From Microbaculum marinisediminis (GTDB taxonomy: Bacteria; Pseudomonadota; Alphaproteobacteria; Rhizobiales; Tepidamorphaceae), in assembly GCF_025397915.1 (NCBI RefSeq), contig NZ_JALIDZ010000001.1:434001-498000 (forward strand): a stretch of DNA of 64,000 bases. Direction: 5' to 3'. A program made the position numbers and the translations under genes. Positions 22,996-51,102 of the stretch are shown here, one piece after another; position 1 is the stretch's first letter, and every line of letters begins with the position of its first letter. The notes under the pieces are model-generated. The model had not been told where the DNA came from and ran no database searches. It was given only the letters and a program-made list of their open reading frames with translations.

Positions 22996-23070
22996 GCGGG
23001 CGTAGTTCAGTGGTAGAACGTCAGCTTCCCAAGCTGAATGTCGTCGGTTCGATCCCGATCGCCCGCTCCA
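22996..23070 (+). tRNA. tRNA-Gly (anticodon CCC)
   Basis: 75 nt including an encoded CCA. The acceptor stem GCGGGCG pairs with CGCCCGC, the anticodon stem TCAGC/GCTGA encloses the loop TTCCCAA (anticodon CCC), and the T arm has TTCGATC. A -35-like TTGACA lies at 22957-22962. Its 3' half is duplicated at 32896-32947, so it is the integration site of the adjacent element and stays intact on the integrase side. Confidence 0.95.
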
Positions 23071-23075
23071 ATTTT
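23024..23075. repeat. attL: 52-bp direct repeat, tRNA-proximal copy
   Basis: From GCTTCCCAAGCTGAATG to CTCCAATTTT. It is identical for 52 bp to 32896-32947 and spans the 3' half of tRNA-Gly plus 5 bp beyond the CCA. Confidence 0.9.
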
Positions 23076-23156
23076 CCTTAAAGCGAACAACGGGTTGACG
23101 CCCTACCGCTAATCTACGCGTTCCCCAACGTTCCCCATCGCGTTCCCTATTCCAGT

Positions 23157-24401
23157 TCACTCATCGTTCCGCGCCTTGCGATGCGCCGCGCGAAGCTCTG
23201 CGATTCGACGCGCCTTTCCGAGCGCGCCACGGCTGTAACGCGCCGTCGTGGAGGCCTGTGCATGGCCCACCGCACCGCGTATCTCGTCAAGCGCCGCGCC
23301 GGCGTCTTCGGCCTCGGTAATGGCCCCTGCCCGCGCGTCCATGTTCCATACCGTGTCCGGGATGCCGGCCGCCCGCGCGACGACGCGCCACTCGCGCCCA
23401 TAGGCCCATTCCGCGTAGGGCCGGCCCGCCATCTCGTCGACGATCAGCGCCCCCACCCGCTGCTCCGCAGGGATCTGCTCCAGCAGCTCGGTTACAAGCG
23501 GACACAAGGCCAAGTCGACGGCGATCAGCGAACCGGTCTTCGTCGTCGCCTTACGAAGCACCAGGTCGTCGCCAATGTCCGACCAGGTGAGGCCGTTGAC
23601 CCATCGCCGGCGACGCAGCACGACCCCGGACGCCGACCCGCCGTCCGGTATCGGTTCCCATTCGCCGATCACGTCACGCTGTCGCATGCCCGTCTCGAAT
23701 TGCAGCGCCGTGCCGAGCGCAAGCGACAGGCGGCCCGCTTCGAGCGCAGCCGTGATGAACGACCGCACGTGCTTGAGCTCGAGGCGGACGCGCCGTCGCG
23801 CCGGCTGTTTGAAGCGTGCCTCGTCGAGGATCGATTTGAGCCGGGCGCATTCCGGCAGTTCGGTCATGATCCCATAGCTCATCAAGAGCCGGAGCATCTT
23901 GATCAGCCCGTGCGCCCGGCGCACGCGCTCCGGCCCGCCTGGCGTCGCCGGCTTCTTCGCCTCGTCGTACCAGCGGCGGAAATCGGGATGACGCAACGCC
24001 GACAGCGACCGCTTGCCGAACGCTCTTTCGAGGATCGCCAACGACGGGTCATAGTCGTTGCGCCGCGTGTTCCACTTCACCGCCTTGTAGGGGCTTGCCG
24101 GGTCAGTCTGGTAAAGCCGGATCAGGCTTCTGAGCGTGCCGTCGAACCGCAAATAGTCCTGCTTCTGTCCAGCCGCCCAAGAAAGCATTTCGGCTTGGTA
24201 GCGTCGGCACGCGGCGGCAATGAGCGCCCGGCCGTCCGGCGTGGTGGCGTCGTAGTGAAGGCGAACCGTCTTCGGCGTGTAGCCTTTCCGCACCAGGTCG
24301 GCACGGGCAACCCACACGTGACGGACCGTCCCGTCCTTGTTTCGCCGAGCCTTGTAGCCCGGCGCGTCGTCATCGAAGGGCATCGAGATTTTCCTCTCCA
24401 T
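23157..24401 (-). CDS. tyrosine recombinase / integrase of the element
   Basis: 414 aa. The C-terminal catalytic domain shows the first Arg in QFETGMRQRDVIGEW, the box II region as VWNMDARAGAITEAEDAG (Asp where HxxR integrases usually have His), and GHAQASTTARYSRGAL with the box His and nucleophilic Tyr. The N-terminal third is a basic arm-binding/SAM-like region. It lies next to the intact tRNA end, as expected for tRNA-targeting integrases. A start at an internal Met (MPFDDDAPG, 24383) is also possible. Confidence 0.92.
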   Translation of the reverse strand: MERKISMPFDDDAPGYKARRNKDGTVRHVWVARADLVRKGYTPKTVRLHYDATTPDGRALIAAACRRYQAEMLSWAAGQKQDYLRFDGTLRSLIRLYQTDPASPYKAVKWNTRRNDYDPSLAILERAFGKRSLSALRHPDFRRWYDEAKKPATPGGPERVRRAHGLIKMLRLLMSYGIMTELPECARLKSILDEARFKQPARRRVRLELKHVRSFITAALEAGRLSLALGTALQFETGMRQRDVIGEWEPIPDGGSASGVVLRRRRWVNGLTWSDIGDDLVLRKATTKTGSLIAVDLALCPLVTELLEQIPAEQRVGALIVDEMAGRPYAEWAYGREWRVVARAAGIPDTVWNMDARAGAITEAEDAGAALDEIRGAVGHAQASTTARYSRGALGKARRIAELRAAHRKARNDE

Positions 24402-24630
24402 CTGGATTGAAAGCCTCGATGCTAGCGAGACCGTATCGGCGCTTCCAATAGGCCTCCACTGCCGGCCAGAACCGGCCGCCCATAATCGGGTCGATCCGCG
24501 GCAGTCCGTCGCGCTCCAAGACAGCTGCCTTGTCCGGCCATTCCGCCGGCGCCTGGCTTAACCGGCGCGCGATTTCGGCCTCGCAGGGAAAGAGGCCCTG
24601 ATTGCGAACGGGATCGATTTTGCGCGACAT
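24370..24630 (-). CDS. small excisionase-like protein overlapping the integrase
   Basis: 86 aa. Its 3' end overlaps the integrase start by 32 nt on the same strand, so the two are co-transcribed. The sequence includes LERDGLPRIDPIMGGRFW and WKRRYGL, a pattern seen in small proteins beside phage integrases. Position and size suggest a recombination directionality factor or small regulator; no clear HTH is visible, so this is inference. Confidence 0.65.
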   Translation of the reverse strand: MSRKIDPVRNQGLFPCEAEIARRLSQAPAEWPDKAAVLERDGLPRIDPIMGGRFWPAVEAYWKRRYGLASIEAFNPDGEENLDALR

Positions 24631-24779
24631 ACCGGGAGCGCCCTAGCTGCTGACAAATTGGTTGCGGTCTCGCCTCCCCACCTCGGAGCATTTCAGACAG
24701 GGGGCAGGTGAGGAGGCTTGCTCCCGAGACGGACCGCGCGCCACGTTTCGATCCCCGCGCCTGATCGTTTTTCGGCTGG

Positions 24780-26627
24780 CTATTCGCCCGGATTCGAGTA
24801 CCAGCTCCGCCAATCGACAAAGCCGCCCCCGAAGTCGAGCCGAACGCGGAACCTGACGCCGTCGACATCGAAGCCAGCTTCGGTATCGATCTGCGGTCCG
24901 GGATCGCCCTCCAGGTAAGCGTACTCCAAGCCGTCAATCACGCCGGGATCGGCCACGACGTACCACCGGGTCGCGTCCGTGAAGCGCGGCTCCACGATCA
25001 GCTCCAGGCGGCCGCTGAACGGATTGACGTCATCGACCTTGGCGGCCGCGATCGAGGCCAGGACCTGCTCGCCGATGGTCTCCAGCTCGGCAGGGACGAG
25101 TAGATATTTGGGCGGCACCGAAATCAATTCGCCCTGCAGCCCGGTCTGCTTCCGCATCGCCTGGCGGGCCACCGTCAAGGTGGTCACCGACACGACCGCA
25201 CCGGAAGCGGCGAGGTTGCCATGATCGGCGTGGAACAACGCCTTGCCGTCGCTCATCGCGGCGTTCGCCTTCACGAGATCGGCAAGGAAATTGTTTTCGA
25301 ACGCGAGTGCCGCGCGGCCCATTTCGCGCGGCACGCGATCGAACGCGGCGAGATCATCGTTTACGAGCGCCTGCCGGGTGATGCCGAAGATCTTGCCGAA
25401 GGTATCGATCTTGTAGCTCTCACCGCTCTCGTTGAACGTTCCGTGCTTGAATTCCCCGTGCTCGTTGACTTTCTCAAGGCTCGGCCCACCGGAGAGTTGC
25501 AGCTTTGTTTTTTTCCGGAAATCCCGAGCGGTCGTCTGTCGCGCGACCATTCGCACACCGGAGGTCGGCACGTCGTACGCGGCTCGGAGCGTCCGGTTCA
25601 CTGTGTCGGCGAGCACCAATGGAAAATCGCTTGTGGTGTGCAGACCGCGAGTGACGAGTTCAGCCGTCGAAAGACCGCGCGTGCTGTGTCCGCCGAACGC
25701 AAGGCACTGCCGAGCGAGTTCGGGGACCGTGAGCCTGGCGAACTCCCGCGCCGGATCGCTGAGCGAGTGGCTCGGCGCGATCCGCTGATAGAGCGCTTCA
25801 CCCATTGCGGCGGCACGGAACTCGGGATTGTCGAAGCTTGCGCCGCCGCCGCCGACTTCGACATGCGGGAACGTCATATGCTCTTCCGAGCGCTTTGCCA
25901 GATGGTCGAGGATCGCCTCCTTGAAGGGTCCCTCGTCCTTGTCCTTGTGGCGGTTGTAGAACTTGTTGGTGAGACCGTAGCGCTGCACCAGCGCCCGCCT
26001 TTCGGTCTCGCCGAAGGTCCGCGTCTCCTGCTCGCGCGTCGGCGTCGCCGGCGGCGGGGCCTCGATGGTGGCAGTCTCGATTTCGTCGGGATCCATGGAT
26101 GTCTCCTTTGACCGGACATGCGCGCCCGGATCGGCTGCCACCGACACGGCGCTGACTTCGTAAAGGTGGATTTGGCGGGCGATGCGGACTTCCCGTTCGC
26201 CTGCATTCGCCGGCGGAATGCGCTCCCACTCGCCGACCTCGTAGCCGAAGCTGATCGCGACACCGACTCCGGCGACGAGGTCGCGGACTAGCTGCTTGGC
26301 GGCCTGGCTATCGCCGAGCTTGATCTTCGCCCGGACGTTCTGCGGCCCGACCGTGACCGCGAGTACGCGGCCGAGCTTCGCGCCCGGATTGAACATGTTA
26401 TGACCGGCGAGGAACGGGACGCCGGCCGGTGAACCGACCCGGGTCAGGTCCCAATTGCTGGCCTCGCGGGAAAGCCGCTCGATGTAGCCGTACCGGCGCA
26501 CGTCGGCGAAGGTCGAAACCACCGCGTCCAGCGTGCGGGTTTCCTCGTCCCAACTCAGTCCGCCGGCGGGCGCGCGGCGCACCATCAGGTCGGATTGATT
26601 CGCGTCGATCGCGCGCTGCAGCATCAT
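24780..26627 (-). CDS. prohead protease / major capsid protein fusion
   Basis: 615 aa from tandem ATGs with a GGAGG ribosome site; the frame is open for 366 nt more upstream but that region belongs to the preceding gene. Residues about 1-170 resemble the HK97-type prohead protease, with His in PFLAGHNMFNPG and Ser in VSAVSVAADPGAHV. A Glu/Pro/Thr-rich linker follows. From about residue 300 to the end the sequence is major-capsid-like (TTSDFPLVLADTVNRTLR, DFRKKTKLQLSGGPSLEK, ALFHADHGNLA, LELIVEPRFTD). The protease matures the shell. No other structural gene is present in the element. Confidence 0.9.
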   Translation of the reverse strand: MMLQRAIDANQSDLMVRRAPAGGLSWDEETRTLDAVVSTFADVRRYGYIERLSREASNWDLTRVGSPAGVPFLAGHNMFNPGAKLGRVLAVTVGPQNVRAKIKLGDSQAAKQLVRDLVAGVGVAISFGYEVGEWERIPPANAGEREVRIARQIHLYEVSAVSVAADPGAHVRSKETSMDPDEIETATIEAPPPATPTREQETRTFGETERRALVQRYGLTNKFYNRHKDKDEGPFKEAILDHLAKRSEEHMTFPHVEVGGGGASFDNPEFRAAAMGEALYQRIAPSHSLSDPAREFARLTVPELARQCLAFGGHSTRGLSTAELVTRGLHTTSDFPLVLADTVNRTLRAAYDVPTSGVRMVARQTTARDFRKKTKLQLSGGPSLEKVNEHGEFKHGTFNESGESYKIDTFGKIFGITRQALVNDDLAAFDRVPREMGRAALAFENNFLADLVKANAAMSDGKALFHADHGNLAASGAVVSVTTLTVARQAMRKQTGLQGELISVPPKYLLVPAELETIGEQVLASIAAAKVDDVNPFSGRLELIVEPRFTDATRWYVVADPGVIDGLEYAYLEGDPGPQIDTEAGFDVDGVRFRVRLDFGGGFVDWRSWYSNPGE

Positions 26628-26646
26628 TGCGCCTCCGTGGGGTCGT

Positions 26647-27150
26647 TCAACGCTTTGAAGCCCCTTCCTTGCCGTCGCGGTCGAGCCGTGACAGCTCGAC
26701 CAAGAGCGAGAGCCGAGGCCGAAGGGCTTCCGCAACCTGACGGCAATCGAGCGCGATCCAGCCTGGAACGCTGTATTGGGTCGCGTTCTCCAGCTTTTCG
26801 AACAGTTCGATTTGGAGATCTTTGCCCATTGGCCACGCAGCGATAAACGGCAGGTCGCGATATCGGCGATCGAGATCTGTAAGATCGTCATCTCCCTTGA
26901 GATGTGCCCAGACGAACTGCGTAGCGTACCGGCCGAGCTTGATGGCGAAGTCCAAGTCGGCAACCAGACGCGAGGAGGCCAACAGGTGGGCAATCGCGAG
27001 GGCGGCTATGTCTCCATAACCATATCCCCACCGCCCGTTTGGCCGGAGCTGCCCGATCTCCTCCAACAGGCCACGGAAACGCCAATCCCGTAGAGACGCG
27101 GCGCTGACGCCAGTGTGGTGAGCAACTTCTCTTGGATCGAATAGCCGCAC
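26647..27150 (-). CDS. MerR-like DNA-binding regulator upstream of the capsid gene
   Basis: 167 aa from a GTG start with GGAG about 10 nt upstream. The N-terminus MRLFDPREVAHHTGVSAASL and the following DWRFRGLLE form a MerR/excisionase-type winged helix, and the rest is helical without metal ligands. The stop lies 19 bp before the capsid-fusion start, so it probably heads a two-gene operon. A 10-bp inverted repeat 12-53 bp upstream is a likely binding site. Confidence 0.75.
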   Translation of the reverse strand: MRLFDPREVAHHTGVSAASLRDWRFRGLLEEIGQLRPNGRWGYGYGDIAALAIAHLLASSRLVADLDFAIKLGRYATQFVWAHLKGDDDLTDLDRRYRDLPFIAAWPMGKDLQIELFEKLENATQYSVPGWIALDCRQVAEALRPRLSLLVELSRLDRDGKEGASKR

Positions 27151-27161
27151 GGTGCCTAACT

Positions 27162-27203
27162 CCGTTGTATTTAACGTTTATATATCATTGCACAATACAA
27201 CGG
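27162..27203. promoter_or_regulatory. inverted repeat upstream of the MerR-like/capsid operon
   Basis: CCGTTGTATT (27162-27171) and AATACAACGG (27194-27203) are perfect 10-bp arms separated by 22 bp of AT-rich DNA. They lie directly upstream of the GTG start at 27150, which fits a repressor or activator site over a promoter. Confidence 0.55.
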
Positions 27204-27290
27204 TCAATAAATTTGCTGCGCGGTTGGCAATCCACGCTCACTGGAGCCGCCCCCCCCCCACATCGCAAGCGCCGCTCCGAACATCGACCC

Positions 27291-27770
27291 TCACATGCCG
27301 TCCTCGCGCTCGCACTGGTCGCCGACATCCTCCTCCAGGTCTCGGTCGGCGCCGATCGCCCAATGCGGCTGGAACCAGTTCCCCACGCAGCCCAGGCTCG
27401 GTTCACGGTCTGGGTCCGGCTCGTGACCGTCGTGCTCGCCTTCTCGATCGTCGTCGGTTCCGCCGGCCCAAGCCTTCAGAAACCCGTGCTCCAGGCTACC
27501 GAGACTCGGCTCCCGCTCGTCGCCGTTAGGCTCGTGGTCCTCGTCCAGCTCGCGCGGGTCGGTGTCCTCGTCGACATCGCTGTCCTCGGCGTCGGCATCG
27601 CCGTCGACCTCGTCGAGGAACAGCGTCATTGACTCGACGAAATTGAGCGCGTCTTGAACGGCCGCTTCGAGCAGCCGCCGCAGCGCCGGCGTGATCGCCA
27701 GGAACTCGGTCAGGTGATCAGAGACAAGGGTCTCCCGTTCGCGGACATGGGTATTCATGCGCGGCCTCAT
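27291..27770 (-). CDS. acidic phage-type protein with repeated REPSLG motif
   Basis: 159 aa; a second in-frame Met at 27758 may be the real start. An ordinary helical N-terminus (about 1-55) is followed by a strongly acidic region (DGDADAEDSDVDEDTDPREL) and two copies of a short unit with REPSLG (EREPSLGSLEHGF, DREPSLGCVGNWF). I recognise this as a recurrent type in alphaproteobacterial phage-like elements, without an assigned function. Its start lies inside the operator shared with the divergent XRE gene. Confidence 0.7.
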   Translation of the reverse strand: MRPRMNTHVRERETLVSDHLTEFLAITPALRRLLEAAVQDALNFVESMTLFLDEVDGDADAEDSDVDEDTDPRELDEDHEPNGDEREPSLGSLEHGFLKAWAGGTDDDREGEHDGHEPDPDREPSLGCVGNWFQPHWAIGADRDLEEDVGDQCEREDGM

Positions 27771-27810
27771 GTGGTATAGAATTGTTCAGACGAGCCATTC
27801 TGTACCACAT
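27769..27810. promoter_or_regulatory. divergent operator between the acidic-protein and XRE genes
   Basis: ATGTGGTATAGAAT (27769-27782) and ATTCTGTACCACAT (27797-27810) are 14-bp inverted arms with one mismatch and a 14-nt spacer. A third half-site, GTACCAC, occurs at 27832-27838 inside the start of the XRE gene. The layout suggests a repressor-controlled switch. Confidence 0.6.
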
Positions 27811-27819
27811 GGAAGCTAT

Positions 27820-28089
27820 ATGGTCAATAAAGTACCACGCGGTATTAATTCGATCACAGGCGCACAAGTACGCGCCGCGCGTGCATTGGTCCGATGGACA
27901 GCAAACGATCTCGCAACCGCTGCGAAACTTGGTGTAATGACGATCCGGCGCGCTGAGGGCACAGACGATGCAGTTAGCATCACGCCAGCGAACGCCGACG
28001 CCATCCGCCGCGCGCTAGAATGCGCTGGCGTCGAATTCATCGAGGAAAACGGCGGCGGGCCGGGGGTAAGATTGAAGGGCTCCGCTTAA
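27820..28089 (+). CDS. XRE-family regulator of the element
   Basis: 89 aa from the ATG at 27820 (MVNKVPRGINSITGAQV). The core is an XRE helix-turn-helix: ITGAQVRAARALVRWTANDL, AAKLGVMTIRRAEG, then DAIRRALECAGVEFIEENGG, a common short phage or plasmid regulator ending. It is the only rightward gene of the element and diverges from the acidic gene across an inverted repeat, so it probably represses that region and itself. Confidence 0.82.
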   Translation: MVNKVPRGINSITGAQVRAARALVRWTANDLATAAKLGVMTIRRAEGTDDAVSITPANADAIRRALECAGVEFIEENGGGPGVRLKGSA

Positions 28090-28185
28090 GTTACTATCCC
28101 TCGCAGTCTCACGTTGCCCGGCGTAAGAAACGGGTACTTGATCGCCACCGAGCGGCAGCGCGTGGACGCGTCGCGTTCAGGATTA

Positions 28186-30525
28186 TTATGTTTGGATACG
28201 CACCCGCTGACGCAGCTGCTCATAGAGTTGAATTTCGGCTTCGTGGGCGATTTCCACCACAACCGCGAAGGCTTGACGACCGACGTCTGCAGCCCAACCG
28301 CCTGCGCACCTAACAACTAGATGATAGGTATCGCCGTAGTGGCTGACATCGCGCGAGAAACTCGCGGTTGCTGTTTGCAGGCTGGATTTCTCGCGTAGCG
28401 TAGGACGTGGTTCCAGCGAGCAGTTAAAGCGATTTTCCAACGCTGGGAATGGACCGTCTTCTGCTACGCGCCGGCGAAAATGCTCAAAGATGAGATCTGG
28501 CTCACAACCACGGATCAGCCTGAACCCCATCGTATTGCCCGCATAGTCGCGTCGGCTGTGACGAACCGGCGGATCGTAAGCTAGGCTAACCCTGATTGTG
28601 CGTCGCCCCCGCTCAGTCTGAAATGCCTCAGGAATCGGGATCTGATAAACAGCAAAATGATCGACTTCCAATTCATCTTCGGCATAGAGCGCTACGCGCG
28701 CATCATCGGAAAAAACAGCGCGCTCAATATCGACTAACCCATGACCGCAGATCGCTCGTTCCGCATCAGCGCCAAGGGGCTGGAGCCTTGCGCGCGCCTC
28801 TGCAGGTATGCTTGCGCTTCCCGCGAGAAGTGCGCGGATCAGATTTGCCGAAGCGTTGGGGAAACGAGCTAATATTTGGCTCGCTTTGAACGCTACGAGC
28901 GGCGCCGAATAGGAGGTACCTGATCGGCCGGCAAAAAGACGATCAACAAATACATTATGAAGTGAAAGCACCCCAGCTTCTGGTAAGTCCTCGCCGCCTC
29001 GCAAACGCGCTACGATAGGATCGTATACCAGCGTGCCACCAACATCGACTAAATCAGGCTTAATTCCCTCTCGAATTCCGGGACCCGCCCTAGAGAACGG
29101 CGAGGGTTCCAGTGCATTTGTGATCGGGCGCACACCTACACTGCCCGCAGCCAGTGGGCCCATTCCATCGCCCTGCGCCAACGAGCCTACAGTGATGACG
29201 TTTATCGCGCCGGCAGGCTCGCATAGTCGATTTGTAGGTTCCAGCAGATACCCGGGATACTCGGTGACGGCCTGCTCGATACGATTGCCTACCCTTGGAT
29301 TGCGATTACCCGCAGCGACAATTATAAGCACGTCCAAGTCGCGAGCCAATTCGTCAAGCGTTGCCGCCCAGGGACCCACTTTGCCTCCGTCAAAGACCTT
29401 TTTCCGGTCCCCCAAAGCGATAACGAAAATCCGGCAATCGAACTCTTGGCTTAACTGAGTGATTGCGTCCCGCATCAATGCGGGCGTTAGGCGCCGGTCG
29501 GGAAAATTCCCAGTGTGATCAAGTACTTTAGCAGAACACAGCCGTGCAGCGCGATCAAGTGTTCCATTGTCAAGTTGAGCGCGCAGATCACCGAACGTCG
29601 AAATCCCGGAAACAAAGGTACCGTGGCCAAAGTCATCCGCCGTACCTAACGCCTCCGGCACACCAATGGCGCCCACGATTATGTCTTCGATCAACGGATG
29701 TAGATTTACGCCGCTGTCGATAACGCCAATTAGAGGGGCGTCCTCACCGACCTCACCCAGCGGTGGCAAGTCGGCCATTTCAAAATCAACGGCCTCTCCG
29801 GTTGAAACGTCCGGCTCCGGTGGAAAGTCGATTTCTGCGATTTCATCTATTCCGAGTAATGTCTGAATGATCGCACCGTCGCACCGAATGCGGACGAGTG
29901 ATATGGAGGGGCCGATATATCTGTCTAGCTCTTCGCCATTTCGTCCTTGAACGTAGGCTGAAATATCTTCGATTTTCCTGGTCCGCAAATCGCGACGGCC
30001 AAGGTCCCACAGCTCGGCATCCACAGTATAAATTGTGCCAGCTTGGAAATCTGCCACCTCAGTAAAGCCGTCCTCCCGCGCCCTGATGCCAATCCGGTCG
30101 CGAGGCGCGATTGCACTGATACCCTCGATGCCGCCGATGAAGGCTGCATAAGCTGGGTTCACGCACCCCAGAGGCACGCCTTGACCATAGGCGGCCAAGC
30201 GTTCACGGAAAGCGGCCATGTCGTCGGTTGAAGCGAATAGCACCAGTGTCCGATCGTCATCGCTCGACAACAAAGTCAAGCCGACTCGGTTCCAATCCTC
30301 CTCAAGAAGCGCCCCGGACATCTGGACTTTGAGGATCAGCGAGGGATCGACGAACTCCGGCCGGCGCCGACGCTGCTGTGTTTCTATGGCGAGGTTAAGT
30401 TCAGCGTCTAGCCGCTGGCTATGCGCCGCGGGATTACGCGGTGGAGGCGGTCGTCCACCTCCAGCTTTTCTTCGTTGGAACCGCTCGGGCAAACGCAGGA
30501 GTTGCAAATGCTCATAGCGTGCCAT
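28186..30525 (-). CDS. ietS: IetS-like subtilisin-family serine protease (anti-phage IetAS)
   Basis: 779 aa. The S8 triad is visible: Asp270 in LIGVIDSGVNLHP, His301 in DDFGHGTFVSG and Ser538 in GRSGTSYSAPLV, with the oxyanion Asn407 in VAAGNRNP. About 260 residues precede the protease domain and there is no signal peptide, so it should act in the cytoplasm. It follows the AAA ATPase gene by 10 bp. An AAA ATPase plus subtilase pair is the composition of IetAS, described for plasmid stability and later as a phage-defence system. The base composition is AT-richer than the chromosome. Confidence 0.82.
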   Translation of the reverse strand: MARYEHLQLLRLPERFQRRKAGGGRPPPPRNPAAHSQRLDAELNLAIETQQRRRRPEFVDPSLILKVQMSGALLEEDWNRVGLTLLSSDDDRTLVLFASTDDMAAFRERLAAYGQGVPLGCVNPAYAAFIGGIEGISAIAPRDRIGIRAREDGFTEVADFQAGTIYTVDAELWDLGRRDLRTRKIEDISAYVQGRNGEELDRYIGPSISLVRIRCDGAIIQTLLGIDEIAEIDFPPEPDVSTGEAVDFEMADLPPLGEVGEDAPLIGVIDSGVNLHPLIEDIIVGAIGVPEALGTADDFGHGTFVSGISTFGDLRAQLDNGTLDRAARLCSAKVLDHTGNFPDRRLTPALMRDAITQLSQEFDCRIFVIALGDRKKVFDGGKVGPWAATLDELARDLDVLIIVAAGNRNPRVGNRIEQAVTEYPGYLLEPTNRLCEPAGAINVITVGSLAQGDGMGPLAAGSVGVRPITNALEPSPFSRAGPGIREGIKPDLVDVGGTLVYDPIVARLRGGEDLPEAGVLSLHNVFVDRLFAGRSGTSYSAPLVAFKASQILARFPNASANLIRALLAGSASIPAEARARLQPLGADAERAICGHGLVDIERAVFSDDARVALYAEDELEVDHFAVYQIPIPEAFQTERGRRTIRVSLAYDPPVRHSRRDYAGNTMGFRLIRGCEPDLIFEHFRRRVAEDGPFPALENRFNCSLEPRPTLREKSSLQTATASFSRDVSHYGDTYHLVVRCAGGWAADVGRQAFAVVVEIAHEAEIQLYEQLRQRVRIQT

Positions 30526-30535
30526 GTCGGAGCTG

Positions 30536-31525
30536 CTAGCCTGACTGAGTTATTCGCGTGCGACCATGCTTGCGGCGGCGCTCGTCACTAATCGCTTTAC
30601 GAAAATCACTCTCGCGGACCTCTTTTCGTTTCTCGATGATAGCAGATTTTATAGCCTGAGTACTTACGCGGTCTATCTCCGCAAAGGAATAGCCGCCCAA
30701 ATTCGCCGCGTAACTAATGGGATCAAAGGCAACCGTGATATTCTTGAACTTCATTCGCAGGAAGCGCTCTGTTAAGCGCCGATCGGGCTTGTCAAACCAG
30801 ATCACCTCGTCGAATCGACGCCAGATTGCTTCGTCTAAAGATTTATCTAGATTAGTTGCCGCCACCAAGAAACCCTTGGGCGTGATCCGGTCAATGAAGA
30901 TCAGTAAACTATTTACGACGCGGCGCAGCTCATTGTGCTCGCCACTTTCGTCTCTGGCACGGGCTAGCGCATCGAACTCGTCAAAAAACAGGACGCTGGG
31001 TTGTTTTCGTGCAAATTCGAATATTTTACGTACGTTGGTCGCTGTCTCGCCAAGATAAGAGGAAATCAACCGGTCCAGCTTAACGATATAAAGCGGCAGG
31101 CCTAATTCACACGCAAATATCTCCGCACAGAGCGTCTTTCCACAACCGGGCGGCCCGCAGAAAAGCAACTTCGAACGAACTGGCAAGCCGCGTCGTCGAA
31201 TTTCTTCGGCTCGCCGAAATTCCTTCATTAGCCCAAGGAAGACGCGTGTATTTTCAGAACTAAGCACAATGTCCTGTTTGCTGTGAGTTGGCTCGACGAG
31301 TTCGATGAAATCACCCGCCGCCTCTGGAAATGGGATAAGCGGCGCAAGTGCCTTTGGCTTAGATTGCCGAGCAGGCGCGGCATCAAGGGTATTTCGGAGC
31401 GAACGAGCGAGCACGCGGTTATTCTTCTTCTCTTCTTCGTCGATGATCTGCTCGGCTACGGCACGAAATTCATCGTCCCGGCCGTAACTCGCCAGCAGTT
31501 TTTTCATCAACTCGCCGCGTGCCAT
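30536..31525 (-). CDS. ietA: IetA-like AAA ATPase (anti-phage IetAS)
   Basis: 329 aa. Walker A GPPGCGKT is at 124-131, Walker B LFFDEFDAL at about 179-187, sensor 1 in VAATNLDKSLD and the Arg finger region in WRRFDEVIWF; this is a classical AAA module with a short N-terminal helical domain. The stop lies 10 bp before the protease start, giving a two-gene operon. In the family the ATPase is thought to control or feed the protease partner. The trigger is unknown. Confidence 0.82.
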   Translation of the reverse strand: MARGELMKKLLASYGRDDEFRAVAEQIIDEEEKKNNRVLARSLRNTLDAAPARQSKPKALAPLIPFPEAAGDFIELVEPTHSKQDIVLSSENTRVFLGLMKEFRRAEEIRRRGLPVRSKLLFCGPPGCGKTLCAEIFACELGLPLYIVKLDRLISSYLGETATNVRKIFEFARKQPSVLFFDEFDALARARDESGEHNELRRVVNSLLIFIDRITPKGFLVAATNLDKSLDEAIWRRFDEVIWFDKPDRRLTERFLRMKFKNITVAFDPISYAANLGGYSFAEIDRVSTQAIKSAIIEKRKEVRESDFRKAISDERRRKHGRTRITQSG

Positions 31526-31881
31526 GTCTTGTCTGCCAACTCCCCAAGCGCCACCGAATCATATCCGCGTATACGCCACTTCAGCATGATTTCCGCTCGC
31601 GCAGTTTAGCCCAACTGTCAACTTCAGCATTTCGTTTTCGCGCTGCGAGGCCAAAATTCTTGTGCCTGTCCCTTCTTGGGGCAGCCTTAAATCCAGTACG
31701 GACTGAAATGCGACAGTCATACACACGCCGTCCCGACACGTGCGCTACCGCTGGGACACGTGTATCCGTGTACCGCATGCACGCTGATCTACTGGCGAAC
31801 ATTCAGGCGCAGTGTGCCCGTAGGAGAGGCGGCCCTTGGGAAGGACCCAACCAAGGGGCCCCACCGCGCTGGCCGTTTTGT
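31526..31881. other. 356-bp gap upstream of ietA with duplicated GACACGTG sites
   Basis: No convincing gene. GACACGTG occurs at 31735-31742 and 31755-31762, 20 bp apart on the same helical face. The second copy is part of an imperfect inverted repeat GGGACACG / CGTGTACC (31753-31772). These may be operator sites for ietA or the neighbouring HTH gene. The rest shows nothing I can name. Confidence 0.45.
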
Positions 31882-32499
31882 TCACCATCGCCGCTCCCCG
31901 GCGCCAAGATGCCGTAATATTCGTCGGCACTGCCGATCGGAGAGCGAGGGTCTAGGTCGAAGGCCGGGAGCGCTCGGCTCTCTTTTCTTGAAAACCTTCT
32001 GTTTCTCCGTCCCAGGCACGCCCGTGCCCCCACCCCCCTCTGCAGCGCGGCCGAGGCGTAGCCAAGCGATCCATTCCGCCGAAACGATAGTGATGATGTT
32101 CGGTAGATTGCGGTCCCGCGCGATCCGCCGTTCCTTAACGTGGATCAAGCCAGCCGCCTTGGCGGTGCGCACGGCGCGCTTCACGACTGTTGTGCCGGAC
32201 AACCCCGCGCGTTTCGCGATGTCGCTATTGGCAAGCGCGCAGAAGCCACGGCGGCGCACCTGGTCGCGGATGATGGCCATGACGGCCATCTCGCCCGGTG
32301 TGAACATCGCCCGGAGCTGCGGCGGCAAAGCCGAGCTGCCGCCCCAGACGCGGCGCCGGTCGCGCCGCATGCCGCATTCGAGCGAACTCGCCGGTGGCGG
32401 CAATCGGTGCGCCCTGCGTTTCTCGGGGAGATCCGGAATGCTGTCCGGATCAACGCCGTATTTGGCGCACAGCGCAAGAAGGTCGGCCTGGGCGTTCAT
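31882..32499 (-). CDS. winged-helix DNA-binding protein of the element
   Basis: 205 aa. The central part (about 65-150) is a winged-helix/HTH domain: FTPGEMAVMAIIRDQVRRRG, SDIAKRAGLSGTTVVKRAVR and AGLIHVKERRIARDRNLPNI. The ends are basic and probably disordered. Similar proteins occur in small phage islands, where they may act in regulation or replication initiation. Its ATG overlaps the preceding stop codon (32496-32499). Confidence 0.7.
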   Translation of the reverse strand: MNAQADLLALCAKYGVDPDSIPDLPEKRRAHRLPPPASSLECGMRRDRRRVWGGSSALPPQLRAMFTPGEMAVMAIIRDQVRRRGFCALANSDIAKRAGLSGTTVVKRAVRTAKAAGLIHVKERRIARDRNLPNIITIVSAEWIAWLRLGRAAEGGGGTGVPGTEKQKVFKKREPSAPGLRPRPSLSDRQCRRILRHLGAGERRW

Positions 32500-32831
32500 C
32501 GCCCCGCCCTATCGCCGGCCGGCAATTCATGCGGATAAGCATCTTTCGAAGTGCGGTTCCTAGGGGGAAACGCGTTTAGCGTCGAGGCCGAAACCGGTTC
32601 CGTATCCGCACCGGTTATCGCTCGGCCAGAAGAAGATACCGGTTCCTCGGAGGGACTGATATCGCCCGCCCGGCTCGCCTCGATGATCGCAGCGCGCGCG
32701 TCGCCACGATTGGCGAAGCGACCGAGCTTGACGTTGCGGCCATCAATGACCGCGATAGCGTCGCATCCGCCCTCGGTTTCGTTGATATACCCTATGCAGT
32801 CCAAACCGTGCGTGACGGCAAGTTCCGGCAT
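32496..32831 (-). CDS. small element protein, unknown
   Basis: 111 aa. The first 55 residues look folded (CIGYINETEGGCDAIAVIDG, RFANRGDARAAIIEASR) and the rest is low complexity. Its TGA overlaps the ATG of the winged-helix gene (ATGA), so the pair is coupled. It starts inside the tail of the extended glycosyltransferase frame on the same strand. No family is recognised. Confidence 0.55.
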   Translation of the reverse strand: MPELAVTHGLDCIGYINETEGGCDAIAVIDGRNVKLGRFANRGDARAAIIEASRAGDISPSEEPVSSSGRAITGADTEPVSASTLNAFPPRNRTSKDAYPHELPAGDRAGR

Positions 32832-34867
32832 CCGAGGATCCTTTCCGGTCTCTCGGATGGGGAACTGGGGTTAACTGGATCAAACGGTTGCCGGCGCTTC
32901 CCAAGCTGAATGTCGTCGGTTCGATCCCGATCGCCCGCTCCAATTTTTCCATAGGCCTGCGAATCGGGCGGGACCGGCGCCATGCCGGTCAGGCCGTGCT
33001 CGGTCTTTTCCCACAAATGCGGGGCGCGGCAGAGCTGCGCGACGGCGCGGACGGCGGCGATCGACATCGTCAGCCAGTAGACCGGCAACAGCGCCAGTTC
33101 GGGCACGAGCCACCACATCGGCCGGTGCCTCAGGCCGGCAAGCGCAAGCGCGAACCCCGCCGCGTAGCCCGCAATCAGGTTCAGCATGCCAATCCAGTTG
33201 ACCGCGAAGTCGACCGAACCGCCGCCATTGAGGAAGATGTCGCCGCGCAGGACCTGGACGGCGATGGCCACAAGGAAGACCGGGTGGACGAAGGCGGAGG
33301 CGACGACGCCGCCGAAGATCGCCTGAATGCCCAGGAACCGGACCGGACCCAGGCGGCGCAGCAGGTCGCCGGGCGCGCGCATGTGGACCAGATAGGTCTG
33401 GATCCAGCCCTTCATCCAGCGGGTGCGCTGGCACAGCCAGGGCCGGAAGCTGACGGGCGCCTCCTCCAGCGTCGTCGACCGCAACGTCTTGCAGCGATAG
33501 CCCGCCCGGGCCAGCCGCAGGCCGAGGTCGGCGTCCTCGGTCACGTTGTAGGCATCCCAGCCGCCGACCGCCTTCAGCGCGCGGATGCGGAAATGGTTGG
33601 AGGTTCCCCCCAGCGGAAACGGCAAGCCGAGCCGCTCCAGCGCCGGCAGGAACACCTCGAACAGCGAGGCGTATTCGAGCGCGAGCTGGCGCGTGAACCA
33701 GCTCTCCGGCCAGTTGTACCAGGCGAGCCGCGCCTGCAGGCAAACGACGTCTTCGGATTCGGCGGCGAAGCGCTCGGCGGCGAGGCGCAACTGGCGCGGA
33801 TCCGGCAGATCCTCCGCGTCGAAGACGGTGACGAAAGCGCCCCGGGCGAACGCCAGGGCGAAACCGAGCGCCTTCGGCTTGGTCTTCGGCGCGGCATCGG
33901 GGACAACGACGACCTGGATCTGCGGCGGCAGCGCGGCCCGGCGCAGGACCGCCAGCGTCTCGGCATCGTCGGCCTCGGTGACGATCTTGATGTCGAGACG
34001 GTGGGCGGGATAGTCGAGGCGCGCGAGCGCGGCGATCAGGCCGGGCACGAGGGCGGCCTCGCGATAGAGCGGCACCAGCACCGTGTAGTCCGGCAGCTCG
34101 TGGTCGGATAGCGGCCGAGATCGCTCCGTCCGGGACGACTCCGGAGGGCCAGACAGCGAAGATCCTAAAGAGGACGGCATCAGCCCCAGCACCGCGGCGG
34201 CGAGACGCAGCCCGATGACGCCCAGAAAGAAAAGGCCGAACAGGCCGGTCAGCGCCAGCAGCGTCGCAACCGGGAACGCCAGCGCGGCCAGCAGGGCGAC
34301 AAGCGGCATGGCGGCGAGCACCACGGCCTGCCTGCGGTCGAGCAGCCGGCGCGCGGAATTGCCGTCGTGCAGCAGCCCGCCGCCATTTCGGGCGACCGCT
34401 ACGAGATGGTCCTGCGCGCACGAGACGAGGGCGTCGGTCAGCGCCTGCGGCGTGGTGATGAACAGTTGCCGGGCCGCAAAGGGACGGGCGGAAAGCGTCT
34501 CCACGAGCGCCGCGACCTGTCGTCCGCGCGGCGCGCAGGCGATCTCGGTGCCGTCGCCGTTGGCCACGACGAGCATGCCGAGCCGCGCGGCGAGCGCCGG
34601 ATCGCGGCCGACGAAGGGATCGGCGGGAAAGCGCAGCCGCACGATGGATACGAACCGGGCGCCGACCGCGGCGGAGAGTGCGCGATAATAGGTGTCGATC
34701 GAGACGAGACGGCGCGACAGCAGCAGTTCATGCGCGCAGGCGCCGAGCCGGTCGGCCTCCGCGACGGCCTCCTCTAGCGCCTCAAGCGGCAGCCTGCCCG
34801 TGAGAAACGCCACGTCGGGCGGCAGGTCCGCAACCGCTTCGCGCCGAACGGCACCCTCCGCCGTCAC
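32792..34867 (-). CDS. membrane glycosyltransferase family 2, 3' end altered by element insertion
   Basis: 691 aa from a GTG at 34867 with AGGGGGG just upstream (a TTG at 34885 is in frame). Residues about 10-165 resemble the N-terminal domain of GspE-type proteins. Two TM segments follow, then the GT-A domain with LVPLYREAALV, FDAEDLPDP (DxD), TEDADLG and QRTRW, the processive GT2 signature, then four or more TM segments. The last ~51 codons come from the antisense tRNA repeat (GDRDRTDDIQLGK) and element DNA, so the native C-terminus was replaced. The product may be an exopolysaccharide or lipid-linked glycan. Confidence 0.88.
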   Translation of the reverse strand: MTAEGAVRREAVADLPPDVAFLTGRLPLEALEEAVAEADRLGACAHELLLSRRLVSIDTYYRALSAAVGARFVSIVRLRFPADPFVGRDPALAARLGMLVVANGDGTEIACAPRGRQVAALVETLSARPFAARQLFITTPQALTDALVSCAQDHLVAVARNGGGLLHDGNSARRLLDRRQAVVLAAMPLVALLAALAFPVATLLALTGLFGLFFLGVIGLRLAAAVLGLMPSSLGSSLSGPPESSRTERSRPLSDHELPDYTVLVPLYREAALVPGLIAALARLDYPAHRLDIKIVTEADDAETLAVLRRAALPPQIQVVVVPDAAPKTKPKALGFALAFARGAFVTVFDAEDLPDPRQLRLAAERFAAESEDVVCLQARLAWYNWPESWFTRQLALEYASLFEVFLPALERLGLPFPLGGTSNHFRIRALKAVGGWDAYNVTEDADLGLRLARAGYRCKTLRSTTLEEAPVSFRPWLCQRTRWMKGWIQTYLVHMRAPGDLLRRLGPVRFLGIQAIFGGVVASAFVHPVFLVAIAVQVLRGDIFLNGGGSVDFAVNWIGMLNLIAGYAAGFALALAGLRHRPMWWLVPELALLPVYWLTMSIAAVRAVAQLCRAPHLWEKTEHGLTGMAPVPPDSQAYGKIGAGDRDRTDDIQLGKRRQPFDPVNPSSPSERPERILGCRNLPSRTVWTA
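32896..32947. repeat. attR: 52-bp direct repeat, partial tRNA-Gly copy
   Basis: Identical to 23024-23075. It contains only the 3' half of tRNA-Gly (anticodon loop to CCA), so it is not a functional tRNA. It is read antisense as part of the glycosyltransferase frame. Confidence 0.9.
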
Positions 34868-43481: not shown

Positions 43482-44051
43482 TCATATACTTATATTCCCC
43501 GCCAAGCGTAAGCGCTGGATTATAGCGGTAATTGCAGCGATTTCATCTGGACGATAAACGTATAACTCAATACTTAGAAATCGACAGATCGCAATAGCGT
43601 GTTCCTGAGCGATTTCCTGTATGCGCCGTATTTCCTCAATACTCTCCAGAGGCCGTTTGCGGCTTTCATCGCATCGACGCCGCTCAGCAATGGCACTTGG
43701 ATTGTCCGCAAGAAAAACCATGCCACTAATGCAAATCGCCTGGAACACGGCAGGGCGAACCAGGATGAGTTCATTATCCTTCTCGATCACAGTATGACCA
43801 TCGAGGATGACGAGACCGGAGCTTGACTTAGTCTTTCGCTTAAACCCCTCTACTAGAAACCGCTGGTTCTCATCAATGTCGATTAGTCGCAACTGATCTT
43901 GCGTAATGGCGATACCCGTCACATTGCGCCCTTCCGCAATCAACGCACTAGCTTGCAGATGCTCCAATGGAATCGAGGCGGCAAGCGTCCTTACCAGCGT
44001 TGATTTACCTACGCCGGAAATACCTGTGAGCGCTATAACTTTGGCTGCCAC
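43482..44051 (-). CDS. P-loop nucleotide kinase-like protein (third gene of the XRE-ASCH/PIN island)
   Basis: 189 aa. The N-terminus VIALTGISGVGKSTLVRTLA is a P-loop (GxxxxGKS) of nucleotide or adenylate-kinase-like enzymes; GLVILDGHTVIEKDNEL and a lid-like AERRRCDESRKRPLES follow. The start overlaps the PIN-GNAT stop by 19 nt on the same strand. The role is unknown: a nucleotide or small-molecule kinase is likely, perhaps acting on a product or ligand of the partner genes. AT-rich. Confidence 0.7.
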   Translation of the reverse strand: MAAKVIALTGISGVGKSTLVRTLAASIPLEHLQASALIAEGRNVTGIAITQDQLRLIDIDENQRFLVEGFKRKTKSSSGLVILDGHTVIEKDNELILVRPAVFQAICISGMVFLADNPSAIAERRRCDESRKRPLESIEEIRRIQEIAQEHAIAICRFLSIELYVYRPDEIAAITAIIQRLRLAGNISI

Positions 44052-45583
44052 GGAGAAAACCCGAGATCAATCTTCCCTATAAGATCTTCTAGATGTCTAT
44101 TTCTAATCCTAAATATTGACTGCGGAGGATGCCCAGGCATCACTCCGAGAATTCGCAGCTCTTCGAGTGAAACCGCTGGCTCTATATAGGCTACTAGAAG
44201 GTAATTTATTACTTTAACAGGCCGCCCCTCCGTCGCCTTCCACATCTCCAGCTCGGCCTCGCTATATACAGATCGCCCACCCGTCAACAACATAAGATCC
44301 TTCGTCGACGATGCGACAGATGACTCTTCAAAAATTCCAATCGCTGTTAATGCCTGTGAGGGCGGGTTTCTTGATTTTCCTTTATAGAACATCAGGAGAG
44401 AACCGGGCGGCCCCAGGCTCGCACTAGCGCGGCAAAGGTAGACCTTTCGAATTGTGTTGCCTGGTCGTTTTGGCCCCAGACCTACCCCGAGCGTTTCGAA
44501 TAGATCCGCCTGTTTCGGATTCCGCAAATCGGGATAAAGCGTGTCGTGATACCCTTCTTTTATAGGAATGCCGAAAGCTCGAACCCCACAGCCCGTCACG
44601 AAGCGGGGATAGTTCAGTCGACCAAGCTCGAAATTTGAAGTACCGGCCACCGGCAAAAGCGGGCCTTGCGAGAACGGCTTCTCATATATCAACTCGCCAT
44701 CTCTTTTTGTCGCGGTATTCTGAAATCCATAATACTCCAGAAGATCTATCAAAGCTGACTGCGTTTTATATGTAGTTATGTAGGCAAGATTATACCTGTT
44801 AATTTGGGCGAACCAAAAAACCTTCTTCAAAAGCAATTCACCTAGCTTTACACCACGCTTCTCAGGCCGAACCTTGAAAGTGCAAATCTTAAGTATTTTT
44901 TTTGCCTTTATTGTCGCATCAGTGTCGGAAGCAGTCTCGTCTTTCCTAACGATCAACCCAGCGAGCCCTTCATCAAACACCGCCCAACATACTCTCCGTT
45001 CATGAACACATTTTTCGCGCCACCACTGGTCAAATGACGGGTAGTCTTCACGCAGGCTGCTGAATATGTCGTCCGTTAACTGTATCTCATTGGCATATAC
45101 TTCTTCGACATAGCGAACTGGAGCAGCAACTGCCTCATACGTAGTCCTCAGCAATTGGACCGCATCGGCGACGTAGAGTACACGGCGGCCAAGCTCTGGA
45201 GACACGCGGCGCGCGCGCTCATGTAACCTACGATCTTCGGTGACTAAAAAGTCAGCCACGCCGCGCTCAACAGCATCCAGCAATGTGGCGTCTACAATGT
45301 CGTTGGGACGACCAAGCGGACCGAATTTTCTTTCTAACTCGGCCGTCTCGAGCCCACGCACTTTTCGAAGGAACTGAAACTTGCGTAGCTTGCTGAGCGA
45401 GATGTTGCGTCTAACTACGTCCCTGTCGCGCTGTATGTCATCTCGGGCCGCCTCGTGGACCATTACGTCCACTTTATATTTTGCTGCAGTGCTTAGTAGC
45501 GCTGCGAAAGCAGGTTGAACTTGGCGATTATCTTCTAGGCCAATAATGACATTCGTATCAATCAGATACGTCTGCGCACTCAT
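44033..45583 (-). CDS. PIN nuclease - GNAT acetyltransferase fusion with unknown C-terminal domain
   Basis: 516 aa. PIN domain (about 5-150): acidic residues in YLIDTNVIIGLED, DIVDATLLDAV and FLVTEDRRLHERAR. GNAT domain (about 200-290): KICTFKVRPEKRGVKLGELL, the acetyl-CoA motif A, and NLAYITTYKTQSALIDLLEY. The last 200 residues are not recognised but include YPRFVTGCGVRAFGIPI; they may be a PUA/ASCH-like or other RNA-binding fold. PIN domains cut RNA in toxins and RNA decay. It overlaps the HTH-ASCH gene by 26 nt upstream and the kinase by 19 nt. Confidence 0.78.
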   Translation of the reverse strand: MSAQTYLIDTNVIIGLEDNRQVQPAFAALLSTAAKYKVDVMVHEAARDDIQRDRDVVRRNISLSKLRKFQFLRKVRGLETAELERKFGPLGRPNDIVDATLLDAVERGVADFLVTEDRRLHERARRVSPELGRRVLYVADAVQLLRTTYEAVAAPVRYVEEVYANEIQLTDDIFSSLREDYPSFDQWWREKCVHERRVCWAVFDEGLAGLIVRKDETASDTDATIKAKKILKICTFKVRPEKRGVKLGELLLKKVFWFAQINRYNLAYITTYKTQSALIDLLEYYGFQNTATKRDGELIYEKPFSQGPLLPVAGTSNFELGRLNYPRFVTGCGVRAFGIPIKEGYHDTLYPDLRNPKQADLFETLGVGLGPKRPGNTIRKVYLCRASASLGPPGSLLMFYKGKSRNPPSQALTAIGIFEESSVASSTKDLMLLTGGRSVYSEAELEMWKATEGRPVKVINYLLVAYIEPAVSLEELRILGVMPGHPPQSIFRIRNRHLEDLIGKIDLGFSPWQPKL

Positions 45584-46349
45584 TTTCTAAGGCCACTCGA
45601 AGAATTTGAGAAACGTATAGGAAAGATTGTGGCGGCTCAAAACCAAACCGTTGCCTCAGCTCATCAAGATTTTTAGGGCGCGAGAACGCGCGCGCATTTG
45701 AGATCTTAAGCGCAACTCCGTCTCTTACCCCCTCGAAATAGCTCTCAAACTCCACCCTATCAATCTGAGCCATCCCCCCAAATCGATCCCATATTTCTTT
45801 GACAGGCATCTTTATTACATCATCAATCTGGGCACTGCCAACCATCGCACGCACCGGTGATGTCGAGTATATGTAGGCAACCGTTCCACTCGCCGCCGAA
45901 ATCGGGAACCGCCGACGCAATTCAACGGTTTTTTTTCCTTCGAGAATTTTTTCAGAGTATATCGGCCGAACACTCAATACCACATCGCGCCTCGGTTTGA
46001 ATATATCACCTCCAAGTATTGGAAATACTATCTTCTCATCGCTCGCAATATAAAAATCAAATGCACGCGCACGGTTATACGCTGGCCGGGAACCCGGACC
46101 AAAGACCGCTTCTATACGAATATTAGCCCCTAGCGCCTCTACGTATTTTTTCAAGGAAGAAATCTTGACATCGCCGCGACTTTCAATCTTTGAGATCGCT
46201 GCCTGGCCCACATTCAAGCGCACCGCCAAGTCTGATTGCGTTAAGCCGGCCAATTCGCGAAGCCCCCTAAGGCACTGACCAACGAAGCGGCTAAGATCGC
46301 TCTCCTTTAAGCGTGCGGTGTTGACTACTTTCTTGTCAGACTTGGCCAT
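45558..46349 (-). CDS. XRE regulator fused to an ASCH domain
   Basis: 263 aa with an AAAAAAGG ribosome site. Residues about 22-80 form the XRE HTH (LRELAGLTQSDLAVRLNVGQ, AAISKIESRGDVKISSLKKY). Residues about 120-260 show the ASCH pattern VVLSVRPIYSEKILEGKKTV, VELRRRFPI and AYIYSTSPVRAMVGSA. ASCH is a PUA-like fold proposed to bind RNA or modified bases. It leads the AT-rich operon, so it may repress the operon and sense a nucleic acid or ligand. Confidence 0.78.
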   Translation of the reverse strand: MAKSDKKVVNTARLKESDLSRFVGQCLRGLRELAGLTQSDLAVRLNVGQAAISKIESRGDVKISSLKKYVEALGANIRIEAVFGPGSRPAYNRARAFDFYIASDEKIVFPILGGDIFKPRRDVVLSVRPIYSEKILEGKKTVELRRRFPISAASGTVAYIYSTSPVRAMVGSAQIDDVIKMPVKEIWDRFGGMAQIDRVEFESYFEGVRDGVALKISNARAFSRPKNLDELRQRFGFEPPQSFLYVSQILRVALENECADVSD

Positions 46350-50932: not shown

Positions 50933-51102
50933 AGGGGTGAGGGGTAAAGCTGTGGGTAGCCGATAAGAGCGAATTGTGCTGGTGAAAAGCACACACGTGC
51001 CGTCAGCTTTCGGCCCTTTGCTGCCAGACACGATCGGCCCGCTGCCGCGGTGCGGCTTTCCTGTATCGAAAGAGCACTCCGCCCAAAAAACCTACTACCA
51101 AG

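Follow-up and report, generated by a model that had tools for sequence, protein, structure and literature searches.

The element analysed here lies within a 64,000-nucleotide stretch of the Microbaculum marinisediminis genome (the window; G000:C1:434001-498000, from a 5.1-Mb assembly of 55 contigs), between two copies of a perfect 52-bp direct repeat (23024-23075 and 32896-32947, plus strand) spaced 9,872 bp apart. The 3' part of a tRNA-Gly(CCC) gene (22996-23070, plus strand), the sole tRNA that ARAGORN found in the window, reaches into the left copy, and we regard this gene as the integration site and the repeats as attachment (att) sites. Ten genes were recognised between the repeats, from a tyrosine integrase through to a 111-aa protein, all of those described here with open reading frames. 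Central among them is a fusion of prohead protease and major capsid protein (MCP) of about 615 aa (24780-26627, minus strand), which matches NF045541 (4.7e-199; 663 bits, cut-off 525), PF25209 (1.9e-60) and PF04586 (5.6e-9). Its reading frame is open to 26993, and the start codon is probably at 26627 (615 aa), because the stretch before it overlaps the gene of a MerR-like protein. Comparison of the ten proteins with Pfam, PHROGs, NCBIfam and PADLOC (the libraries used throughout) revealed no terminase, portal, tail or lysis family and no connector, small terminase subunit (TerS) or HNH gene, and tblastn and profile scans, with profiles that do not cover every family, detected no large terminase subunit (TerL), portal or tail protein in the element. 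An earlier note had described the region as an element of about 9.9 kb between perfect 52-bp repeats at tRNA-Gly, with an integrase, a protease/MCP fusion and regulators and devoid of terminase, portal, tail and lysis genes. The repeat spacing, family matches and scans agree with it in all these respects; it had omitted an IetAS defence pair and a cos-like region.

The strongest clue to a satellite nature of the element is this probable cos (packaging) region, a non-coding stretch of 105 bp (31757-31861, minus strand) that is 76% identical (E 5e-15) to a stretch upstream of the terS gene of a prophage in the same genome. The prophage (within G000:C1:340000-375000, outside the window) is contractile-tailed and comprises terS, terL, portal, MCP, protease, sheath, tape measure, baseplate wedge, tail fibre and endolysin genes, with the MCP and the protease encoded separately. 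In a blastn comparison of the element with G000:C1:320000-399999 the cos-like stretch gave the single strong match (to L034:7186-7290), the remainder being two weak matches in the MCP coding sequence (E 0.005 and 3.7e-4). The prophage copy starts 34 bp upstream of the gene for the PHROG_57 terminase small subunit (L034:6526-7152, 4.9e-8), which is followed by terL (PHROG_15, 8.3e-183). A search of eight genomes located the 105-bp stretch in two places of G000 (the element and the prophage), in one place of G001 (in the corresponding element of a same-genus genome described below) and, weakly, in one of G005, with no match in the remaining five. The G005 match falls inside a coding gene, which we take to encode seryl-tRNA synthetase, and was regarded as a chance hit. 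The earlier note had advised looking for a co-resident helper phage with terminase and portal genes; this prophage possesses both, and it is the probable helper of the element.

Within the probable cos region the GGGTCCTTCC core begins at 31848 on the minus strand. The core GGGTCCTTC was derived from the alignment of window and prophage and tested afterwards on 34 loci containing TerL, where it occurs 13 times in the 107 kb lying on the TerL strand up to 3.5 kb upstream of the gene and 4 times in the 1,275 kb elsewhere; three of these four copies are likewise upstream on the TerL strand, at 3.7-4.5 kb. When 9-mers were ranked by their occurrence upstream of TerL, the core and its one-base shift stood out among the top entries as the only ones of low overall abundance (17 and 19 occurrences, vs 80-154 for the other 9-mers listed). 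Inspection by eye showed that 16 of 19 sites have a CGGG 13-18 bases past the core. The record of Rhodobacter phage RcKemmy, which is linear, breaks off inside a similar sequence, with two mismatches to the core, TATGCG at its end and GGGG at its start, and the end of this record is probably the physical end of the genome. Similarity beyond the core was scored against 200 shuffles; the z-scores are 12.0 for window and prophage (L034), 9.9 for window and G001, and 12.0 for G001 and prophage, vs maxima of 2.8 (window), 2.9 (G001) and 3.4 (L034) against 16 other sites. Because of this similarity beyond the core, the elements of the window and G001 carry the site type of the resident prophage and not merely a widespread core.

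The capsid protein also connects the element with the prophage. The MCP of the window is 32% identical to that of the prophage over 414 aa (E 1e-64), and the protease half of the fusion is 35% identical to the separate prophage protease (2.5e-14). The capsid domain common to the window and G001 is under purifying selection, with a ratio of non-synonymous to synonymous substitution rates (dN/dS) of 0.156 (dS 1.1), close to the values for the integrase (0.18), the 86-aa protein beside it (0.17) and a winged-helix protein (0.19); the ratios for the 111-aa protein and an acidic protein are 0.39 and 0.45. The G001 MCP lacks the protease half. Its residues 41-102 match the N-terminal parts of MCPs from L013 (39%, 9e-9), the resident prophage (42%, 1.4e-8) and L041 (40%, 4e-7), and no other locus apart from G001 itself; a hydrophobic stretch opens both this MCP and that of the prophage. 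The simplest reading is that the G001 capsid domain has gained a phage-type scaffold (delta-like) region, which would fit co-assembly with such a helper.

G001 and G002 are the two same-genus genomes among those drawn, and both contain a relative of the element at the same site. The integrase is found at E<=1e-30 in 20 of 397 genomes of the order, the closest copies being those of G001 (82% identity) and G002 (77%). In G001 (L035) a distance of 9.15 kb separates the att copies, the second of which has 3 mismatches, and the backbone is the same as in the window, i.e. the 111-aa and 205-aa proteins, the XRE-like and acidic 159-aa proteins, MCP, 86-aa protein and integrase. The G002 element (L111/L112), with att copies 10.2 kb apart, one of them with 3 mismatches, has homologues of the integrase, 86-aa, XRE-like and 111-aa proteins, together with a prohead protease (PF04586, 4.1e-32), an MCP (PF05065, 8.3e-78) and a tape-measure-like protein (PF06791, 6.6e-20); thus, the capsid genes of the same-site elements belong to two unrelated families. 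Neither tblastn nor profile scans found TerL or portal in the G001 element. PF04860 (portal) is present elsewhere in all three genomes and PF03354 (TerL) elsewhere in G001 and G002, and neither lies inside the elements of the window, G001 or G002. At tRNA-Gly, G001 and G002 share with the window the integrase, 86-aa, XRE-like and 111-aa genes and carry an MCP, and the cargo differs. Comparison of the G002 element with the phage-type locus of G002:C9 gave three matches, none of them to a packaging site; they fall within genes called in both sequences or at the edge of a gene.

For a broader view of the fusion MCP, we collected 46 loci by capsid-domain searches with the MCPs of the window and Chelatococcus and scanned them with TerL, portal and tail profiles, only part of their open reading frames being compared with the libraries. 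The set excludes loci with 1.5-kb flanks only (among them L015, L018 and L021, where a portal was seen), places not fetched, and most of the further matches (91 and 40 records not listed). TerL and/or portal are present in 32 loci, and L249, grouped with these, has TerL- and portal-like genes of other families recognised by eye; because they escaped the profiles, the latter are not universal. Six loci were not judged, five on short contigs (L013, L016, L024, L258 and L259) and one with the MCP at the record edge (L064). The remaining seven of 46, a count that is not a frequency because the sample was steered by the queries, are without detected TerL or portal: the window, G001, L054, L063, L246, L247 and L248. 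L054 is from Chelatococcus asaccharovorans, on a contig that begins 2.6 kb upstream of the MCP, and L063 is on a plasmid of Sphingomonas paeninsulae, where the MCP is preceded by a short TerS-like protein (44% over 64 aa, 1e-10). The others are bounded by a 47-bp repeat at tRNA-Lys (L246, 12.5 kb), a 49-bp repeat at tRNA-Arg (L247, 11.2 kb) and a 22-bp repeat (91%) beside tRNA-Gln (L248, 11.3 kb), and L247 and L248 encode fusions of the ClpP type. Two elements without TerL or portal have one tape-measure-like gene in addition to the MCP (L112:3508-5658 in G002, 716 aa; L246:7096-8784 in G011, 562 aa), as though they provided for the size of the head as well as of the tail; in L246 this gene escaped the tail profiles. 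The L246 family seems to be represented in G011 by another copy, distributed over two contigs, L268 (G011:C7:1-5845) and L016 (G011:C27); the second copy of the L246 intergenic region belongs to this sister element and is without the core.

In a FastTree phylogeny of the 46 capsid domains, rooted at the midpoint, the MCPs of the window and G001 are paired (support 1.0) inside a clade of 13 members (0.99) that includes also L054, the loci with both TerL and portal L036, L038, L039, L060, L061, L242 and L243, and the portal-bearing short contigs L053, L056 and L057; the position of the pair within the clade is weakly supported (0.84, 0.09). None of the 13 members matches a tail profile, and all 12 tail-positive loci of the tree fall outside the clade, with the qualification that several contigs are short and the profiles miss some tail genes. 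The absence is clearest in L060, which has an integrase at one end and tRNA-Met at the opposite end, and in L061, where the integrase adjoins tRNA-Glu. The MCP of the window thus belongs with loci in which no tail gene was detected and is separate from those of tailed phages.

The integrase family is wider still, being present at E<=1e-60 in 32 of 111 genomes (36 places) of one genus of the same order; a scan of viral contigs with the integrase alignment revealed no relative. We examined 18 of the closer integrase stretches and a Methylobacterium bullatum record obtained by tblastn of plasmids. Both tRNA-Gly(CCC) repeats are in view in the window, G001, G002, M. bullatum L132, L200, L201 and L212. 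Six of these seven elements contain an MCP, L212 being a 2.3-kb remnant, and five of the six have no TerL or portal match. The exception is L201 (G469:C24, 2162-19121), with a full layout resembling that of capsid-forming phage-inducible chromosomal islands (cf-PICIs): portal (PF04860, 2.9e-73), protease, PF05065 MCP, connector, PF05119 TerS and TerL, and no tail gene seen. L132 encodes a 215-aa protein (97% identical in L200) with a weak PHROGs match (7e-6) to a 218-position terminase-large-subunit family and no Pfam match, and we take this PHROGs family to be mislabelled. Both L132 and L200 have a partial tail-fibre-J-like protein (4.5e-9) and a 127-aa protein that was considered as TerS and has no Pfam or PHROGs match; the integrase of L132 is broken, with a transposase-like open reading frame inside. 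Of the other integrase loci, some show a single repeat, some a different tRNA-Gly isoacceptor (TCC in L205-L207) and some no tRNA. Phage genes are near L205 and L207, and among ten large proteins from L203, L204 and L208-L211 seven have no Pfam match, two are flagellins and one is a histidine kinase. The integrase family is thus not confined to satellites.

Taken together, we consider it fairly probable that the element, of about 9.9 kb, is a phage satellite of the cos type and that its lone MCP reshapes the helper shell or takes its place, in the manner of Ccm of SaPIbov5, a Staphylococcus aureus pathogenicity island (SaPI). The integrase would excise and insert the element at tRNA-Gly(CCC), as the perfect repeats and same-site relatives suggest, and the replication-initiator-like protein would start its replication. 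TerS and TerL of the helper would recognise the helper-like cos region and fill a head with element DNA. To this the element would add only its own MCP with the fused protease, which by analogy to Ccm may co-assemble with the helper MCP or replace it, while portal, terminase, connectors and tail would come from the helper. The resulting heads would suit the small genome, and the yield of the helper would fall.

Several observations weigh against this reading. Excision, packaging and shell function are all deduced from sequence, and an AlphaFold model of the MCP (six-sequence alignment) reached a mean pLDDT (predicted local distance difference test) of 53.9, too poor to confirm an intact shell fold. 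No primase or helicase family was found among the ten proteins. The site match between window and prophage is 76%, not identity. Eighteen of the 34 TerL loci have no exact core within 4.5 kb upstream, including the clade mates L036, L060 and L242. The G002 element is without the core and its capsid set differs from that of the window, while the core-like 9-mer of L246, an element without TerL or portal, is not kept in its sister copy. Finally, in the passages cited, the capsid gene of the Gram-negative island EcCICFT073 is dispensable for interference (PMC6092414) and is quoted as dispensable for transfer (PMC10111431).

The last comparison leads to a rather unlikely alternative, in which a cos-type satellite is packaged in heads made entirely by the helper and its own MCP does no more than disturb the assembly of the helper, or is carried as a passenger. 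EcCICFT073 combines cos sites with a capsid gene whose deletion left interference unrelieved (PMC6092414), and such genes are cited as unneeded for transfer (PMC10111431); the protease half lost in G001 points the same way. Purifying selection on the capsid domain and the recurrence of two unrelated capsid families in same-site elements argue against it, as does the N-terminal part of the G001 MCP, which resembles MCPs of the helper type and fits co-assembly. The earlier note had named a degenerate prophage as its alternative, to be preferred if close relatives held the locus as a full prophage, and in G001 and G002 they do not. More generally, decay of a prophage or capsid-forming satellite until integrase, MCP and cargo were left, with no phage-borne movement, finds parallels in the full head and packaging set of L201, the broken integrase of L132, the partial tail-fibre-J-like gene of L132 and L200 and the remnant L212. 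Decay is not what the locus of the window looks like: the genes listed are open, the att repeats are perfect, the capsid domain is under purifying selection, the cos region is like that of a current resident prophage, and G001 and G002 are likewise compact, with an MCP and no TerL or portal, which makes the remnant improbable in our view. We give very little credence to the idea that the MCP was recruited, instead of for packaging, as an encapsulin-like compartment of the cell or into the defence cargo. Its presence next to a defence system, with neither portal nor TerL, could be construed in this way; against it, the protease half is kept in the window, DUF2190 or tape-measure-like genes persist in some relatives, packaging is indicated by the cos-like site, and no encapsulin family is among the Pfam, PHROGs and NCBIfam matches.

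A more far-reaching view of the cos-type satellite with a lone MCP, which we rate as less likely than not, is that it represents a class of reduced capsid-forming satellites in Alphaproteobacteria. Its MCP would derive from capsid-forming satellites, no portal or terminase being kept, and the cos site would have been fitted to one contractile-tailed helper, as would, in G001, the scaffold part at the N-terminus of the MCP, giving mixed or replaced heads; this state may have been reached independently by several integrase/tRNA combinations and by fusions of both the S78 and ClpP types.

The earlier idea of a satellite supplying its own shell is thus supported, if unproven, by the packaging-site match, the same-site relatives and the MCP tree, whereas its model, the cf-PICIs (as defined in the cited part of PMC10690885), fits less well. 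Like these, the element has its own MCP and head maturation protease; its MCP groups with loci that have a portal, mostly TerL and no detected tail genes, and L201 demonstrates the complete layout in the same integrase family and site. It differs in having no portal, connector, TerL, TerS or HNH gene found, just as it differs from a complete prophage in the terminase, portal, tail and lysis genes. Closer models are the cos-type SaPIs with Ccm and the Gram-negative PICIs carrying an MCP gene. According to the passages cited (PMC8569155, PMC5052747), the former are small satellites integrated at a tRNA or other site and packaged by the helper through cos; they encode a single HK97-fold homologue of the helper capsid protein but neither portal nor terminase; Ccm of SaPIbov5 occupies pentamers and turns prolate into small isometric heads. 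The element likewise has a lone capsid homologue of the prophage MCP and a helper-like cos site, but differs in the fused prohead protease, the PF25209/NF045541 family, the alphaproteobacterial-type relatives and the IetAS cargo.

Gram-negative PICIs such as EcCICFT073 and PmCI172 are described as islands of about 10 kb with an integrase, an alpA- or merR-type regulator and often one MCP gene (PMC6092414, PMC10111431); 21 of 29 reference islands have this gene, which is cited as unnecessary for transfer (PMC10111431). Two cosN sequences similar to those of lambda are present in EcCICFT073, whose cos sequences match a helper, a feature comparable to the helper-like cos site of the element, and PmCI172 makes small heads and has an MCP homologue (PMC6092414). 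The element has an integrase and its own att site, its 9,872 bp being at the lower edge of the 10-20 kb range (PMC10111431), and differs in having no primase found, a plasmid-type winged-helix replication gene and another capsid family. Lone-MCP PICIs are already known in gammaproteobacteria, and in the open-access literature searched we recognised no description of lone-MCP satellites in Alphaproteobacteria. If our reading is true, lone-capsid cos-type satellites extend to this class, and the packaging-site match names a testable helper in the same genome. The role of the lone MCP in Gram-negative PICIs appears unsettled in the cited parts of PMC6092414 and PMC10111431, and the system of the window would make it testable. 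The data also suggest a link from capsid-forming to Ccm-type satellites, in which portal and terminase were lost and the MCP exchanged its N-terminal part, and the cos-like signature provides a purely sequence-based means of matching satellites to helpers.

The remaining genes of the element encode mobility, regulatory and uncharacterized proteins. The tyrosine integrase (23157-24401, minus strand; 414 aa) matches PHROG_1 (1.1e-18) and, under the family cut-off, PF00589 (4.9e-4). It adjoins the gene of the 86-aa protein (24370-24630, minus strand; identity 81% in G001 and 67% in G002), which has no relative above chance in the libraries and by its position is a possible excision factor. A 167-aa MerR-like regulator (26647-27150, minus strand; PHROG_2474, 2.1e-5) scores 21.0 bits with MerR_1 (PF13411, 3.5e-4), just under the cut-off of 21.6. 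We considered it as TerS and set this aside, as L201 has a MerR-like gene in that place plus a PF05119 TerS; four MerR-like proteins in that place align poorly (18-25% identity). It is followed by the acidic 159-aa protein with EPSLG repeats (27291-27770, minus strand; 60% identical in the G001 alignment, no family match in the libraries) and a divergent XRE/HipB-like helix-turn-helix protein (27757-28089, plus strand; weak matches to TIGR03070, 0.0011, and a PADLOC control protein, 5.4e-5), with homologues in G001 and G002. The winged-helix, replication-initiator-like protein of 205 aa (31882-32499, minus strand) matches PHROG_15967 of unknown function (9.6e-35) and PHROG_391 (replication initiation, O-like; 4.1e-5), and the 111-aa protein of unknown function (32496-32831, minus strand) belongs to the shared backbone, with homologues in G001 and G002. 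The 205-aa protein was rejected as a marker of the element, most of its homologues being beside parA on plasmid-like contigs. One of these, L129 (G278:C181, 10.35 kb), contains parA, the 205-aa homologue, a helicase-like gene, a prohead protease and a PF05065-type MCP, with no TerL, portal or integrase match, and is possibly a plasmid-form relative. L147 (G158:C6) and L149 (G176:C18), of 13.2 and 16.4 kb, have overlapping ends and are probably circular plasmids, each with a 205-aa homologue and a ParA-like protein.

The cargo is an adjacent gene pair (together 28186-31525) identified as the IetAS defence system, comprising the S8 protease IetS (28186-30525, minus strand; PADLOC, 8.7e-118; PF00082, 5e-27), with IDSG, GHGT and GTSYSAP motifs, and the AAA ATPase IetA (30536-31525, minus strand; PADLOC, 4.2e-84; PF00004, 6.5e-34), with GPPGCGKT. 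Both match the PADLOC models over nearly the full length, and since they score far below the NCBIfam equivalog cut-offs (101 vs 900 bits and 237 vs 510) they constitute a divergent subtype, whose role would be anti-phage defence. Because G001 has other genes in its place, the pair is probably exchangeable defence cargo. The G001 cargo (L035:2533-5556) encodes a 351-aa protein with a weak DUF3644 match (1.2e-4, under the cut-off) and a 251-aa protein without family match. The region around IetAS (28-32 kb of the window) has a G+C content of 0.55-0.57, vs 0.65-0.72 in most of the flanking 20 kb. Further stretches of low G+C content (0.48-0.51, on a background of 0.65-0.70) at 44001-46000 and 51001-54000 of the window are possible islands.

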